A stretch of DNA of 38,276 bases, taken from a virus. The stretch spans positions 1-38,276 of the IMG/VR virus record IMGVR_UViG_3300032050_000353. One strand, 5' to 3'. The notes beneath the pieces are model-generated. The model worked only from the letters and a program-made list of their open reading frames with translations. It was not told the origin of the DNA and did no database searches. A program made the position numbers and the translations under genes. Shown here one piece after another: positions 4,373 through 35,167 of the stretch; within the stretch, counting starts at the first letter, position 1, and each line of letters starts with the position of its first letter.

Positions 4373-4845
4373 CCAAATTCGATAACAACCTAATTACTAA
4401 GCAGTTAATTAAATTTAGCTGCTTATTTTTTATTTTAAAACATAACGCTTGCAATTACGACTTGTTACACGTAACAGCATTATAAATCAATAAGTTACAA
4501 AACCACTTTTCAAATTGTAACAGCTTGTAACAGTCTTTGTTACGCTGTAACGCCCACCACCATTGGTTTGTAACAATGTAACGCTTTTTTTGCAAAAATA
4601 CGCTTAATTAGAATAACATTATTATATTCTCTTATATAGATATATATTTATACTGTTACATTGTTACAATATAGTAGGATGTAGTAGTAGTGGGGGTTAC
4701 AGCGTAACAAAACTTTTTTATTTTTGTAACGGTTGTTACAGCCCACCATCACTACGTTTCAGTTTTAGAACTCAATAGGAATGCCTGTTACAAGCCCCTA
4801 TTTTTTACATTTACATTTTTCAGCAAAAAGAACTATCTTTGTATT
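4373..4845. promoter_or_regulatory. Iteron-rich non-coding region, candidate replication origin
   Basis: This is the longest non-coding stretch in the genome. Between 4464 and 4791 it holds 16 copies of GTTAC or its complement GTAAC, mostly in pairs 7-10 bp apart (4464/4471, 4517/4527, 4539/4547, 4570/4578, 4655/4663, 4696/4704, 4726/4735). About 0.6 would be expected by chance at even base use. The blocks at 4539-4582 and 4655-4708 form an interrupted inverted repeat sharing GTTACGCTGTAAC, a CCCAC block and TTGTAACAATGTAAC. Between them (4583-4654) is a very AT-rich core. Iterons flanking an AT-rich unwinding segment are the classic form of a replication origin. An operator array is the alternative. 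Confidence 0.65.
4834..4841 (+). promoter_or_regulatory. Late-class promoter of the packaging/tail operon
   Basis: TATCTTTG followed by TATT and then the ATG at 4846. There is no TTTG box 19 bp upstream (TTAC is found there). A -7 box only 4 nt from the start codon implies a leaderless or nearly leaderless transcript. Confidence 0.6.
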
Positions 4846-18581: not shown

Positions 18582-18853
18582 CAAAGCAACAACTAACTAA
18601 AAACCTTGCCACCGCTTTAGCTGAAACCCTACTCAGCAAAGCCCTTACTCCCGAAACGCTCGCAGACTTCTTGCTCAGTTCGGGTCTTGTTTCCGAAATG
18701 CGAGCGCGTCAATACTGCGCCGTTCGGGAATTTTACAGGCTCTATGCGTCACAAAAGAAGTGCGAGCTAATCGAAGAAATGTCGCAAAAATATGCGGTTT
18801 CGGCTCGGCTCATGAAGAGTTTGACGACTGAGCAGCGCAGGTTTAGTTTTTAA
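18578..18853 (+). CDS. Hypothetical helical protein
   Basis: A 91-residue all-helical protein. The segment EEMSQKYAVSARLMKSLTTEQ could form a helix-turn-helix, so DNA binding is possible but unproven. It is coupled to the upstream CxxC gene by an ATGA overlap, and its stop overlaps the convergent sigma factor gene by 4 bp. No terminator separates the two convergent genes. Confidence 0.6.
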   Translation: MTKQQLTKNLATALAETLLSKALTPETLADFLLSSGLVSEMRARQYCAVREFYRLYASQKKCELIEEMSQKYAVSARLMKSLTTEQRRFSF

Positions 18854-19671
18854 AGCTGTGCCACTCGTTGCATTGTGCTGCGCATCTTAATGAGCGACTT
18901 GTCAACAATCTGCTGAATGCGGCTGCGTGTGAGGTTCATATCTTTGGCTATATCGTTTAAGAATTGCGGTGTGTAGTACCCGATACCGAAATAGCGTTTA
19001 ATTATTTCGGCATCCCTTTCAGATAGCACACTAAGCCCTTTTTTTACGAGGGTTTTTGTGTATTCCTCGTTTCGCTCTGCGTCTATGTCGATATCGCCTT
19101 GCAGCTCGTAACATTCCTCACTTTCAGTTTCATCTATCGGGCGGTCAATCTCGAAGATGGTATAATTTGCGGCTACTGAATTGCGTAGCTCCGTTTCAGT
19201 TATGCCTAAACGCTCGCATAGTTCTTCGTCTGTTAGGTATTCGCCCTTGGTCTTCAGGGCTTTTATTTGTTGGTTATGCCGTTGCGGGTGCATAGGGCAA
19301 TATATAAGGTTGCCCTTATCCTGGATATACGCGCTTATTCGCTGTCTAATCCACCATACAGCAAATGAAATAAAACGCACACCCTTAGTCGGGTCAAAGC
19401 GTTGCGCCGCAAAGATAAGACCCTCGTTGCCTTCTTGAATCAAGTCCGAAAGCCTAACATTGTGATTGAGGTAAAACTTAGCGATAGAAACGGCAAAGTG
19501 CAGGTTACTTGTAACGAGTTTCTCGCGTGCTGCTTCGGGGTCGTTGTCGAAATCACGCAGCAGCTCGGCTTCTTCTGCGTGGCTCATGTGTTTCAATGGC
19601 CTAATGTCGTTCATGTATTTGCCGAGTTCGGCGTGGGGTGTGGTGCGTGATGTTACTTTGAATTGTCGCAT
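18850..19671 (-). CDS. Phage RpoD-like sigma-70 factor
   Basis: A 273-residue group-1/2-type sigma factor. It opens MRQFKVTSRTTPHAELGKYM, matching the start of Bacteroidetes RpoD. Region 1.2 is PLKHMSHAEEAELLRDF. Region 2 holds LVTSNLHFAVSIAKFYL, RLSDLIQEGNEGLIFAAQRFD and FISFAVWWIRQRISAYI (2.3-2.4). Region 3 is YLTDEELCERLGITETEL. Region 4 is LSERDAEIIKRYFGIG, with FLNDIAKDMNLTRSRIQQIV forming the -33-binding HTH. All regions are present, so it should redirect host core RNA polymerase, most likely to the late phage genes. It is the last gene of a three-gene minus-strand operon. Confidence 0.95.
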   Translation of the reverse strand: MRQFKVTSRTTPHAELGKYMNDIRPLKHMSHAEEAELLRDFDNDPEAAREKLVTSNLHFAVSIAKFYLNHNVRLSDLIQEGNEGLIFAAQRFDPTKGVRFISFAVWWIRQRISAYIQDKGNLIYCPMHPQRHNQQIKALKTKGEYLTDEELCERLGITETELRNSVAANYTIFEIDRPIDETESEECYELQGDIDIDAERNEEYTKTLVKKGLSVLSERDAEIIKRYFGIGYYTPQFLNDIAKDMNLTRSRIQQIVDKSLIKMRSTMQRVAQL

Positions 19672-22478: not shown

Positions 22479-23486
22479 ATGGCAACTGAATCAGGTAGCT
22501 TAGACCTTAGGCTGAACACTCAGCAAACTATCACAATGATGTTAGAGCCTATCTTCACCGATGGACTTTTGGCAGACTCATTTTCTATTGTAAAAAACTT
22601 TTACGGCGGTGAATACGCTATCGGGCTTTTGGGTGCGATGCGTAACGTTACAGGCAAACAGCAAGCGTGTAGCCCTAAGTATAAGGGCGCGGCTACTTTG
22701 TCCGAGCGTAAATTGATTGCAAATTACCTCGAAGCGGGCGCAGTGCTTTGCTATGAGGAATTTATGCGTACACATTACGATTATCTTGCGCCGTTGTACA
22801 CAACTGCTCAGGGTACTCCGAACTTGACGCAGCTCGTTAATATCTTGATTACCCTTTTGGGTGACGGTATTCGAAGAGATGTTGAGCGCGTGGCATGGTT
22901 TGGAAATTCTGCAAGCACAGACGAAAATATCAACTTTGCCGATGGTGTATTCAAGTATATTGATGACCTTATCACAACCACCCAAATCGGCTACCGTGTG
23001 AACAGCACGCAAGGCACTTTGCTGACAGACCAACAAGCCTATGAGCTTTTGCAAGACGTAGTACAAAACGCCACAAGCGCATTGAAACGCTACAACCGTG
23101 CCGATAAGATTATTCATATCAGCGGTAACCTTTGGGACCAAATCCTGCGCTACTTGATGGACGCGTCTATCAGTAACGGTCTTATCAAAATCTTTGAAGA
23201 GCCACAGGGCGAGATGGTCGGCACATTTATGGGTATCAAAGTTTTGGCGCACTACAACTGGGATGACATCTCTTTTGAATATTTCGGCTTGGAACACCAA
23301 AACAAAATCATCTACACCGTTAAGTCTAACCTTATCATGGGTACGGATTTACGCGCAGATGCTTTGGGCGGTCAGGCTTTCTTCAAGACCTACCAAGACC
23401 CAAAAACAGACGAGATTTTCATGTCTTCTAAGTTTATACTCGCGGTGAACTATGTATGGCCTGAGCTTTTCAGCGTTGCGTTTTAA
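22479..23486 (+). CDS. Major capsid protein
   Basis: A 335-residue protein with an HK97-fold-like layout: N-terminal arm, ERKLIANYLEAGAVLCYEEFM helix, GDGIRRDVERVAWFGNSAS, a central domain with YNRADKIIHISGNLWDQILRYLM, and MGIKVLAHYNWDDISFEYFG before the terminal strand. It directly follows the protease/scaffold and decoration genes and is flanked by transcript-ending hairpins, as expected for a highly expressed gene. The call rests on length, context and pattern. Confidence 0.85.
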   Translation: MATESGSLDLRLNTQQTITMMLEPIFTDGLLADSFSIVKNFYGGEYAIGLLGAMRNVTGKQQACSPKYKGAATLSERKLIANYLEAGAVLCYEEFMRTHYDYLAPLYTTAQGTPNLTQLVNILITLLGDGIRRDVERVAWFGNSASTDENINFADGVFKYIDDLITTTQIGYRVNSTQGTLLTDQQAYELLQDVVQNATSALKRYNRADKIIHISGNLWDQILRYLMDASISNGLIKIFEEPQGEMVGTFMGIKVLAHYNWDDISFEYFGLEHQNKIIYTVKSNLIMGTDLRADALGGQAFFKTYQDPKTDEIFMSSKFILAVNYVWPELFSVAF

Positions 23487-31930: not shown

Positions 31931-32140
31931 TTATGATTGCAGCGAGCTTATAAGCTGCTTCATTTCTTCATAAGTTTCAATTATCATAATATCGCCTTTT
32001 AGCGTCCCAATAATTGATTTTGCAAGGCTTTCAGATTCTTCTTTATAAGGTGCAATATACATTATATACTCAACCTGTTGCATGATTTCTGTTACTAAAT
32101 TATCCTTGCCGACAGTATTAACTTTGATAAATTTTGGCAT
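31931..32140 (-). CDS. Hypothetical small protein
   Basis: A 69-residue soluble alpha/beta protein (VTEIMQQVEYIMYIAPYKEE; GDIMIIETYEEMKQLIS). No family recognised. It lies 113 bp downstream of the tmRNA; its leader contains a GGTGG/CCACC hairpin (32176-32192) without a U run, which may mark the end of tmRNA processing. Confidence 0.6.
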   Translation of the reverse strand: MPKFIKVNTVGKDNLVTEIMQQVEYIMYIAPYKEESESLAKSIIGTLKGDIMIIETYEEMKQLISSLQS

Positions 32141-32253
32141 TGCTTTATGTTTTAGGGGTTATTTTGGCGGCCTGTGGTGGTTTCTTTCCACCATCCCCCG
32201 AACTCTTAATCAGGATTTTGAGCAATGCCCCACTTAAACTAACAGACCATTTG

Positions 32254-32560
32254 TGGAGGTGGTGGGAGTCGAACCCACGTCCAATTACTCGTTTTAATTC
32301 AGGATTTTACAGGCTTAGTCAGTTTTGGAAAGTCTGACAACTTAGGCCGTCCGAAGACAGCTCCACCATTCAATTATTTGCAGAATTGAAACTGTTTTGT
32401 GCAGGCCGTCCCTGCTTGAGTCTATGCTGCTATTGCAGCTGCGGAGCAAAGACTAACTACTCTTGCGGTGCGACCCTGAGGTGCGTTTGCTGTTGTGCCG
32501 TTTAAAGCTGTTTTGCCTGACTGAAAAACTCGTTTGTAACTGTCGAAGCCAGTCACCCCC
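32254..32560 (-). ncRNA. ssrA: Transfer-messenger RNA (tmRNA)
   Basis: A complete tmRNA of about 307 nt. The 5' end GGGGGUG pairs with CACCUCC at the 3' end (with one G-U pair), followed by discriminator A; CCA is not encoded. The 5' domain has the conserved UGGCUUCGACAG, and the T arm is GUGGG-UUCGACU-CCCAC. The tag frame ends GCA AUA GCA GCA UAG (stop at 32424-32422); counted from AGU at 32454 it gives SLCSAAAIAA. The terminal AIAA fits a protease tag, though host Bacteroidetes tags usually end in ALAA or AMAA. tmRNA frees stalled ribosomes. No dedicated promoter is visible. Confidence 0.92.
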
Positions 32561-32567
32561 ATGTTTT

Positions 32568-32595
32568 AAAAAAGCCCTGACACGCATCAGGGCTT
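32568..32595 (-). terminator. Terminator between tRNA-like element and tmRNA
   Basis: Nine-bp perfect stem AAGCCCTGA/TCAGGGCTT (32572-32580 with 32587-32595), 6-base loop, six U on the minus strand. The tmRNA 5' end lies only 7 nt after the U run. Confidence 0.82.
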
Positions 32596-32641
32596 AAACT
32601 TAATATGTCGAATAAGAACTTTTTCTGTTTTCGATTTGCTG

Positions 32642-32708
32642 TGGAGGTATCGGGACTCGAACCCGAACTCACGCGCGTAAACTGGTTTTACCATTAAACT
32701 ATACCCCC
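32642..32708 (-). tRNA. Degenerate tRNA-like element
   Basis: A 67-nt cloverleaf-like sequence. Acceptor GGGGGUA pairs with UACCUCC (one G-U), with discriminator A and no encoded CCA. The D arm is GUUU-AAUGGUA-AAAC and the T arm is UCGGG-UUCGAGU-CCCGA, both intact. Between D and T arms only 18 nt remain where 22-23 are needed, and they do not form a proper anticodon stem; there is no U33 in place and effectively no variable loop. No amino acid can be assigned. It is flanked on both sides by terminator hairpins. Confidence 0.7.
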
Positions 32709-32711
32709 TTC

Positions 32712-32744
32712 AAAAAAACCGCTATACTAAGAGCAGCATAGCGG
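32712..32744 (-). terminator. Terminator ending the leftward early operon
   Basis: Stem CCGCTAT/ATAGCGG (32719-32725 with 32738-32744) with seven U on the minus strand, 60 bp after the AAA+ gene and 4 nt before the tRNA-like element. Confidence 0.85.
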
Positions 32745-32804
32745 CTTCACTATCAATCTATGCACTACAAAAATAGGCCTTTATTTTCATAAGTGAAAAT
32801 ATTA

Positions 32805-34535
32805 TTATAAAAATATTTCATTTATCGGAATTGCAACACCTCTACCTGATACACCTGCACTATATCTTTTCACTCCTGACTTGATTGCGCCCTTCATCCT
32901 ACTAAGCACTATGTTATAACTCACAGCCCAAGCCGCGCCCGACTTTTGCAGCAATTCTTTTACGAACTTTGCACCGTTTAGGATAAACAGATATTCGATT
33001 CCATCTTGAACAGCAACCTGCAAGCCTAAACGCTTTAGTTTGTCGTTTGCCTCGTCTGATTTTATGCCGTTGGTTACGCAGGGTCTTGAGCTTGCAATTT
33101 CTACAAGTTCGCCAAGTGTACGTACCCCGATAAAATCGAGCGACTCTATACGCTGCTCACTACTCAAAATAAGCTGCAAGCATCTTTCTTCGTCCGTGCT
33201 ATCCTTTGCGCTCTCAGCTTGTCCGATAGCCTTTAAGATAGCCTCCGACTCTGCTAATGCCGTTTCGTAACTTACCTCTTCATCATTCAAAGTATGCCAC
33301 CATCCACCTAACAGCGTGCCGATTTGGTCGCCTGTGGATTTTACGCCTGTTATCGCAGTAATTGCACTTACAAACGTTTCTATACTGCGCATCATTACGG
33401 GCAAAATGCTAATCATTCGAGCTTGGAAACGACCTGCATAGTCGGGTGTAAGCATCTCAGCGCGTCCGCTTTCGATTTTGCGGAATGCTTCATTGTCTTT
33501 TAATTTCGCTATCTCTAAAACGCAAAAGCGACGTTTATCAGAGTCGAGGGCTATCTGTGGGTTTATTGAGCTGAGAAGAAAGCAAGATTTTACAGTATAT
33601 TCTTTTGCTTTTCCATCTTTCGAGCCTTTAGTCTGCGCTGCTCCATCCTTAGAACTTGCAGAACGGCATACGGACAAAACGCCCTGCATACGGTTTGCGC
33701 TGCGCTCGTCGTTGCCTTCTGCTTCATCAAATGTAACCGCAAACGCATCATTATTCAATCGCTGTACAATACCCATTTCGGTAGTGTTGCCTTGAAAGTT
33801 CACACCTAAGCTGCCTAACATCTTGTTGATGACGTTTTCAAGTAACCAAGACTTTCCGCTGTCTTTCGTACCAGTTAGCCAAATGTGAGGTCGCCAGTTC
33901 AACACACCGCAAACAGGCGCAATTGCTATCCACCCCGATAATAGGCGTGAGTCCGCAGCCGTGCCGAAATTCAAAAGCTGCAACATTTTTGTAAGGCGCG
34001 AGGATTCTTTGGATTCCATCGGGGTCTCGATGTGCATTTTGACAGGTGAGCGCATTTCATAGATAAACTCCGTATTAGTTCCGAGCGGCACACGTTGCCC
34101 TTCGATTATAAGCTGAGTACCTGCGTGAATAACAACGCGCCCCTTATCCATCCAAGCACCACGACCGCGTACCTTATCCACCGAAAAGAACCCGATTGCG
34201 TTGGATAAGCTGATAAGAAAATCAGCAGCAGCAAGCGCATCAAATGAACCACCTGCCGCGAAACGTTCCACCCAAAACTCTAAAGGTGCAAGCATCAAAA
34301 GGTTTTGCTTCGACATTTTAGCCGCTGCCAGTTTGATAATGCTTTTGCAGCTCGAAACATAAAAATAGTATTGTAGCACTCGTTCCTCTGAATCCCATCC
34401 AATCGGCATAAAATAGCCCTGAATGAATCCCGTTTTATCGCTCGCAGGTGTGGCTGAGGGCGCTTGCTTTGCGGTCGTTTTGCGTGTCTTTTTGGGCTGT
34501 TGCTCTTCGCTGTCCCAGTTGATAACTTTTTTCAT
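32805..34535 (-). CDS. Replication ATPase (AAA+/DUF927-like helicase)
   Basis: A 576-residue protein with a basic, disordered N-terminus. The ATPase core has GWIAIAPVCGVLNWRPHIWL leading to Walker A TGTKDSGKS (221-229), Walker B AVTFDEAEGND with Asp270-Glu271, and a sensor/arginine-finger region SSINPQIALDSDKRRF (323-338). This arrangement is found in phage primase-helicase C-terminal halves and DUF927-type ATPases. No primase catalytic motif is visible. The upstream gene, overlapping by ATGA, is a DnaB N-terminal domain, so the two likely act together as replicative helicase/loader. Exact family uncertain. Confidence 0.75.
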   Translation of the reverse strand: MKKVINWDSEEQQPKKTRKTTAKQAPSATPASDKTGFIQGYFMPIGWDSEERVLQYYFYVSSCKSIIKLAAAKMSKQNLLMLAPLEFWVERFAAGGSFDALAAADFLISLSNAIGFFSVDKVRGRGAWMDKGRVVIHAGTQLIIEGQRVPLGTNTEFIYEMRSPVKMHIETPMESKESSRLTKMLQLLNFGTAADSRLLSGWIAIAPVCGVLNWRPHIWLTGTKDSGKSWLLENVINKMLGSLGVNFQGNTTEMGIVQRLNNDAFAVTFDEAEGNDERSANRMQGVLSVCRSASSKDGAAQTKGSKDGKAKEYTVKSCFLLSSINPQIALDSDKRRFCVLEIAKLKDNEAFRKIESGRAEMLTPDYAGRFQARMISILPVMMRSIETFVSAITAITGVKSTGDQIGTLLGGWWHTLNDEEVSYETALAESEAILKAIGQAESAKDSTDEERCLQLILSSEQRIESLDFIGVRTLGELVEIASSRPCVTNGIKSDEANDKLKRLGLQVAVQDGIEYLFILNGAKFVKELLQKSGAAWAVSYNIVLSRMKGAIKSGVKRYSAGVSGRGVAIPINEIFL

Positions 34536-35167
34536 TGCTGCGCCGTTTTATGTCTTGCTAAATTCACAGGTTCAATGCCCTGTATTTGTTCCATAAGCTC
34601 AAAGCAGTCTACCGTATCGTCATAAGCTGCTTTGATTGTTTCCGTGCAACGCTGTATAATTTCACGCTGTAAGAATTTCTGTACTATTATTTTAGAGTGG
34701 TACGAAATATTAGCAGACGATGCAACGCGCTCGGTTAAAAAGCAGAGGTAATAAGCATCTTCGATACCTTTTTTCTTCTGCTCGGTAGCTACTGTAACGA
34801 GGTCAATTGGTATTCGCTGCGCTTGCATCTCGATAAGTAGCGCATAAAGCTCCACGTGCTTCTTATTGTAAAAGTGTTCGGGCTTTAGGAACTCCGAAAC
34901 CTGAGATAAGGCTGCGCTGTCGCATAGAATTGCGCCTAAGACAATCATTTCAAGGTCTTGCACCTGTGGCATAGGCTTGCCGAACATTTTAACCTCTTGC
35001 GGGTCTTGACTAACTATTACCATCAAGTCGTTAATAGTATCAATTTGTTCCTGTTTAAGATTTTTATAAGCTTCTTGTTTCTCTTTGGAAACGTATTCGC
35101 GCATTCGTTTTGCTTCTTGAATAAGCTGCGCCTGCAATAGCTCGGCGCGGTTTAGTAGTTCTTGCAT
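34532..35167 (-). CDS. Stand-alone DnaB N-terminal domain protein
   Basis: A 211-residue protein. After a coiled N-terminus, residues ~75-180 match the DnaB helicase N-terminal domain: DLEMIVLGAILCDSAALSQV, LKPEHFYNKKHVELYALLIEM, IDLVTVATEQKKKG, AYYLCFLTERVASSANISYHSKIIVQKFLQR. The protein stops there; the RecA-like ATPase domain of DnaB is missing. That domain mediates hexamer assembly and primase contact. The next gene supplies an unrelated ATPase, suggesting a split or replaced replicative helicase. Confidence 0.85.
   Translation of the reverse strand: MQELLNRAELLQAQLIQEAKRMREYVSKEKQEAYKNLKQEQIDTINDLMVIVSQDPQEVKMFGKPMPQVQDLEMIVLGAILCDSAALSQVSEFLKPEHFYNKKHVELYALLIEMQAQRIPIDLVTVATEQKKKGIEDAYYLCFLTERVASSANISYHSKIIVQKFLQREIIQRCTETIKAAYDDTVDCFELMEQIQGIEPVNLARHKTAQQ

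Follow-up and report, generated by a model that had tools for sequence, protein, structure and literature searches.

The phage genome IMG/VR record IMGVR_UViG_3300032050_000353 carries a complete one-piece tmRNA (ssrA) gene that, with a probability that we put at roughly 0.6, encodes a working phage tmRNA, acting together with the SmpB, EF-Tu and AlaRS of the host and tagging nascent chains for AxAA-type proteolysis. We refer to this record, 38,276 bases analysed over its whole length, as the window. Phage tmRNAs are already known, having been counted in 402 of 18,146 phage genomes (2.3%; PMC9004378), and the gene described here is an unusual variant. Three features escaped the first-pass annotation: pseudoknot 1 has been lost, the tag is long, and the adjoining tRNA-like gene has no anticodon arm. 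Its description of a complete phage tmRNA as rare holds only in part: in addition to the frequency given above, dozens of IMG/VR contigs carry such a gene, with the qualification that tmRNA was found in none of 48 records with a related terminase, most of which are fragments.

The gene was called both by ARAGORN and by the RF00023 covariance model (Infernal), which matched 32560..32251 over the full model (1-374) with 83.2 bits (E 5.4e-31), above the gathering score of 47 bits. The complete tmRNA proposed in the first-pass annotation is thereby borne out and its fold accepted, with the strand corrected to minus (Table 1). The tRNA-like domain has an intact acceptor stem of seven pairs (GGGGGUG with CACCUCC), discriminator A73 and, as the third pair, G3:U70, the pair that marks tmRNA for alanine. 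Also intact are the T arm (GUGGG UUCGACU CCCAC), the GACUGGCUUCGAC D-loop region, which has no D stem, and the GACUAAGC motif; the 3' end reads ACAA in place of an encoded CCA. Two properties of the molecule count against a working tmRNA. Its score (83 bits) is lower than those of all 60 Bacteroidota host genes found (105–198 bits, from 60 of 61 genomes), and the helix-2 duplex (−12.2 kcal/mol), equalled by 4.6% of shuffles, beats shuffled sequence only modestly. ARAGORN also made a second, "permuted" two-piece call (32331-32731), which joins the adjoining tRNA-like gene to the tmRNA; we rejected it, an artefact being the best reading.

Table 1. Features of the tmRNA region, in window coordinates
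Feature	Position	Strand	Basis or remark
Small ORF	31931-32140		Other flank of tmRNA gene
tmRNA (ssrA) gene, one-piece, 308 nt, CCA not encoded	32253..32560	-	ARAGORN; RF00023; same sequence in L105
Tag frame ANAPQGRTARVVSLCSAAAIAA + TAG stop, 22 aa	32422..32490	-	Probable resume codon GCA 32490; ARAGORN start GCA 32484
Linker, 24 nt, helix 2a to resume codon, usual site of pseudoknot 1	32491..32514	-	Deletion here in RF00023 alignment
Helix 2, 5' strand	32515..32541	-	AGUUAC/UUCAG/CAGGC pair with GUAAUU/CUGAA/GCCUG near 32280-32312; RF00023 alignment
Terminator-like hairpin AAGCCCTGATGCGTGTCAGGGCTT + T run, 11 nt before tmRNA 5' end	32572..32595	-	Fold −15.3 kcal/mol
tRNA-like gene without anticodon arm, 67 nt	32642..32708	-	RF00005, 47.6 bits; missed by ARAGORN
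Terminator-like hairpin, 7-T tail, after primase gene and just before tRNA-like gene	32716..32747	-	Sequence fold
Primase gene	32805-34535		One flank of tmRNA/tRNA-like region

The window ends in a 127-bp terminal direct repeat, and the phage genome is therefore probably complete and terminally redundant. A contig from sample 3300008120 (L105) has an identical tmRNA over the 480-nt region compared, and the two assemblies are 99.9% identical across about 12 kb. When close relatives were sought with the primase, only this same phage was found, and a search with the virion structural protein encoded at 22479-23486 returned nothing; the tmRNA is thus known from one phage population, which counts against its being a working molecule. 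Relatives of the terminase (40–48% identity) occur in the genomes of Mucilaginibacter, Xanthocytophaga and other Bacteroidota, and judging from these the host is probably a member of the Bacteroidota. No SmpB gene was found in the phage, which must therefore borrow the host's SmpB, as is thought for other phage tmRNAs. Elsewhere in the window, the minus strand encodes a sigma-70 family factor with regions 2 and 4 (18850-19671; about 31–33% identity to the closest phage sigma factors) and a 211-residue protein comprising the N-terminal domain of DnaB helicase only (34532-35167), directly before the primase-like protein gene. A 25-nt inverted repeat, 92% complementary and with arms 126 nt apart, lies at 4536-4711.

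Because ssrA is a common integration site, and host-type ssrA near one contig end is frequent in IMG/VR, we considered whether the gene is an attachment-site copy or a recently captured host ssrA. This is highly improbable. The gene is complete with both ends present, no tyrosine or serine recombinase/integrase was found in the phage, and whole-gene BLAST against 296 Bacteroidota genomes matched almost only the last 30–38 nt, the part formed by T arm and acceptor, which are conserved universally; the exception, G074, matched 74 nt at 77%. An attachment-site relic, consisting of the 3' end alone beside an integrase, was the reading to which identity with a host ssrA 3' end would have pointed, and we rejected it. 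Methylophage Melnitz (PMC9004378) similarly has a complete tmRNA, no integrase and no relic of this kind; however, its tmRNA is of the permuted two-piece form and lies under a glutamine riboswitch, whereas that of the window is in one piece.

The tag frame follows an A at −4 and ends in AIAA and a stop. ARAGORN read the tag as APQGRTARVVSLCSAAAIAA, beginning at GCA 32484, which is probably short by the first two residues. The resume-codon context of other phage tmRNAs is NNNGCAAACG and that of the window ACAGCAAACGCA; since GCAAACG is common to both, GCA 32490 is the likelier first codon, giving 22 residues. Both candidate codons have an A at −4, and as they share one frame the choice alters two residues only. 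E. coli tmRNA requires the A at −4 and tolerates at −5 the C that is found here (PMC2481249). The tag contains neither acidic nor aromatic residues and is neutral to basic.

For comparison, tags were read at 36 Bacteroidota host loci (GENNYALAA, ANDYSYAMAA, DNNYSYRLAA and similar; an ARAGORN read judged implausible, ERSQPFSKSSRAGN, was set aside) and from viral contigs, the latter found via three DNA patterns, with two tags read by eye from RF00023 alignments. The 52 distinct viral tags leave out a few clearly host-type ones (ANDENYALAA and close variants of it) on prophage contigs that flank ssrA, and the comparison is indicative rather than controlled, the host lineages being different. A further pattern, GACTAAGCNTGTAAANNC, was discarded as a tmRNA finder, yielding almost only non-tmRNA loci; among 36 new loci ARAGORN found no tmRNA. 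The longest distinct host tag kept has 10 residues, and the first-pass claim that the window's tag is unlike those of Bacteroidota hosts stands against the 36 loci. The AIAA end, which had been taken as part of its oddity, is not unusual: 5 of the 52 distinct viral tags share it, and ANDEQYAIAA was found in contig L312. Tags of at least 18 residues make up 15 of the 52, and only one tag other than that of the window lacks both acidic and aromatic residues. Several long tags have a common C-terminal style (ASLFGEVAIAA, FSLLGEEVAVAA, AEIFGEVAMAA), to which the VVSLCSAAAIAA of the window bears, by eye, a loose resemblance. IMG/VR phage tmRNAs with tags of 24–38 residues, such as GDKSLQGLEVDWHLANQERMFDTFIEPARTSQPSHAYA and DKTQSSRVAEGEAILASLFGEVAIAA, include L101:635-1041, L092:3120-3439, L091, L123, L429, L434, L444, L451, L466 and L501; several have an SLxxEVAxAA-like end, and no tags of this length and ending were found among the Bacteroidota host genes sampled.

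The gene of the window stands out by lacking pseudoknot 1, an element usually present, though not strictly required, after helix 2 and ahead of the resume codon. The linker at this place holds no pseudoknot even with 3-bp stems allowed, and 3 bp is the longest hairpin stem that it can form. Counted from tmRNA position 39, the resume codon of the window is reached after 32 nt (38 with the later GCA), as against 51–64 in hosts and 43–58 in the other phages compared. A simple H-type search detected a pseudoknot in 31 of 32 distinct host sequences; among 18 phage sequences 16 have one, and the window and L092 do not. Allowing 3-bp stems yielded a pseudoknot in L092 and in a compact phage group with the tag DNAELAMAA, each matched by 7–10% of shuffles. 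Under the 4-bp rule, further phage genes, including L429 and L446, likewise yielded no pseudoknot, and the window may therefore not be unique. The absence counts against a working tmRNA; however, E. coli tmRNA accepts a hairpin or single-stranded RNA in place of pseudoknot 1 (PMC4236655), and by analogy the loss of this element is probably tolerated here.

The neighbouring tRNA-like gene lies 81 nt upstream of the tmRNA. Its acceptor pairs at all seven positions, with G3:U70 as the third pair and A73, its D stem is intact and its T stem has five of five pairs. In place of an anticodon arm with a 7-nt loop and a variable loop, 18 nt separate the D and T stems (about 22–23 nt is usual), which could form no more than a hairpin with a 4-nt loop. 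Charging with alanine would be possible, since AlaRS recognition does not involve the anticodon, although the RNA cannot decode. A search of 50,697 phage records and 148 Bacteroidota genomes found no near relative of the gene. Of 57 distinct IMG/VR matches to a pattern for tRNA-like genes with an anticodon arm lost or reduced to a mini-hairpin, 30 have a good acceptor and T stem; the idea that such phage genes form one designed class was not upheld, the mini-hairpin being better than in shuffled sequence in only 6 of the 30, and that of the window not being one of them. Genes of this kind, with a reduced or lost anticodon arm (that of the window and L187, L206, L213, L219, L234 and L235), may reflect decay or a non-decoding function. 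The hairpin that follows the primase gene probably ends the primase operon. As terminator-like hairpins lie directly before both RNA genes, their expression is in some doubt, and this too counts against a working tmRNA.

These observations bear on whether the gene is in the early stages of decay from a formerly working phage tmRNA, with pseudoknot 1 gone, a terminator-like hairpin in front and a crippled neighbour in like state. The score below those of all host genes compared, the missing pseudoknot, the armless neighbour, a helix 2 modestly above chance and the lack of tmRNA among the terminase relatives would all fit decay. We nevertheless consider it unlikely: a 22-codon frame with a canonical end persists together with the intact acceptor and T arm, and a useless 308-nt relic would be expected to vanish quickly from a compact phage.

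The reduction of the region before the tag beside a well-kept tRNA-like domain, and the presence close by of another alanine-type acceptor, on an RNA with no anticodon arm, could also point to a decoy, in which the tRNA-like domain binds SmpB (and EF-Tu/AlaRS) and damps host trans-translation, the tag being vestigial and the neighbour acting likewise. A precedent exists in mycobacteriophage DS6A, which encodes a tmRNA-type tRNA-like domain that, like the one in the window, has no anticodon and could serve as an SmpB sponge; a tmRNA of the DS6A kind strongly inhibits tmRNA in E. coli (PMC4131195, PMC11915505). The DS6A RNA, however, consists of the tRNA-like domain only, whereas the window gene keeps the full mRNA-like part, and its intact 22-codon frame with the AIAA end would be needless for a pure decoy. 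The 67-nt neighbour is not of the DS6A type either, and we rejected its reading as such a domain: it has a true tRNA D arm and is tRNA-derived, scoring 47.6 bits as a tRNA against 22 bits as a tmRNA, and the tmRNA model gives 17–25 bits also to other short host-genome segments that are probably ordinary tRNAs. A decoy appears unlikely as well. Yet more doubtful, and frankly speculative, is a two-RNA alanine module, in which the pseudoknot-less tmRNA with its long neutral tag and the anticodon-less alanine-type tRNA would jointly capture AlaRS, EF-Tu and SmpB and re-set or blunt host ribosome rescue in the course of infection, long phage tags being phage-specific signals read unlike host tags.

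The reading that we prefer, a working tmRNA, is supported by the agreement of two methods on the gene, by the intact acceptor and T arm with G3:U70, and by a stop-free frame whose AIAA end is in the right place and whose style is like that of many phage tags. The A at −4 with a tolerated C at −5 (PMC2481249), the replaceability of pseudoknot 1 (PMC4236655) and the many phages with full tmRNAs (PMC9004378) are consistent with it. In the mechanism that we propose, CCA would be added by the host and the RNA charged with alanine by host AlaRS; host SmpB and EF-Tu would bring it to stalled ribosomes, which would move to the GCA resume codon, so that the nascent chain would gain Ala plus ANAPQGRTARVVSLCSAAAIAA. 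The hydrophobic AIAA end would then act as the signal for a ClpXP-type protease. In sum, ribosomes would be kept recycling while the infection lasts, and broken proteins of phage and host would be removed. That the tag may steer stalled products to a different fate, or that the RNA may replace a host tmRNA degraded in infection, are conjectures of the first-pass annotation.

The gene shares with the standard one-piece bacterial tmRNA (RF00023; Bacteroidota ssrA) the tRNA-like domain, the G3:U70 acceptor, a long helix 2, a GCA-type resume codon and the AxAA end. Bacteroidota ssrA differs in its length (about 350–400 nt versus 308), in possessing pseudoknot 1 and in a tag of at most 10 residues, whereas the window's tag has 22 and no acidic or aromatic residue. 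Other phages, namely the mycobacteriophages Bxz1, Catera and Wildcat and Bacillus phage G (listed in PMC4131195), as well as those surveyed in IMG/VR, likewise encode a complete tmRNA. Long tags recur among the surveyed ones; unlike the window, most of them keep pseudoknot 1, and the window differs further in its neutral to basic tag and its 38-kb genome.

Although phage tmRNAs have been counted, hardly any has been put to the test, and the window unites three testable departures in one small genome: pseudoknot 1 is missing, the tag is long and free of acidic and aromatic residues, and the tRNA alongside has no anticodon arm. The recurrence of long tags in phages, with none among the sampled Bacteroidota host genes, raises the question of their purpose. 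If active, the tmRNA of this phage would offer a natural test of how far the mRNA-like part can be reduced before trans-translation fails.
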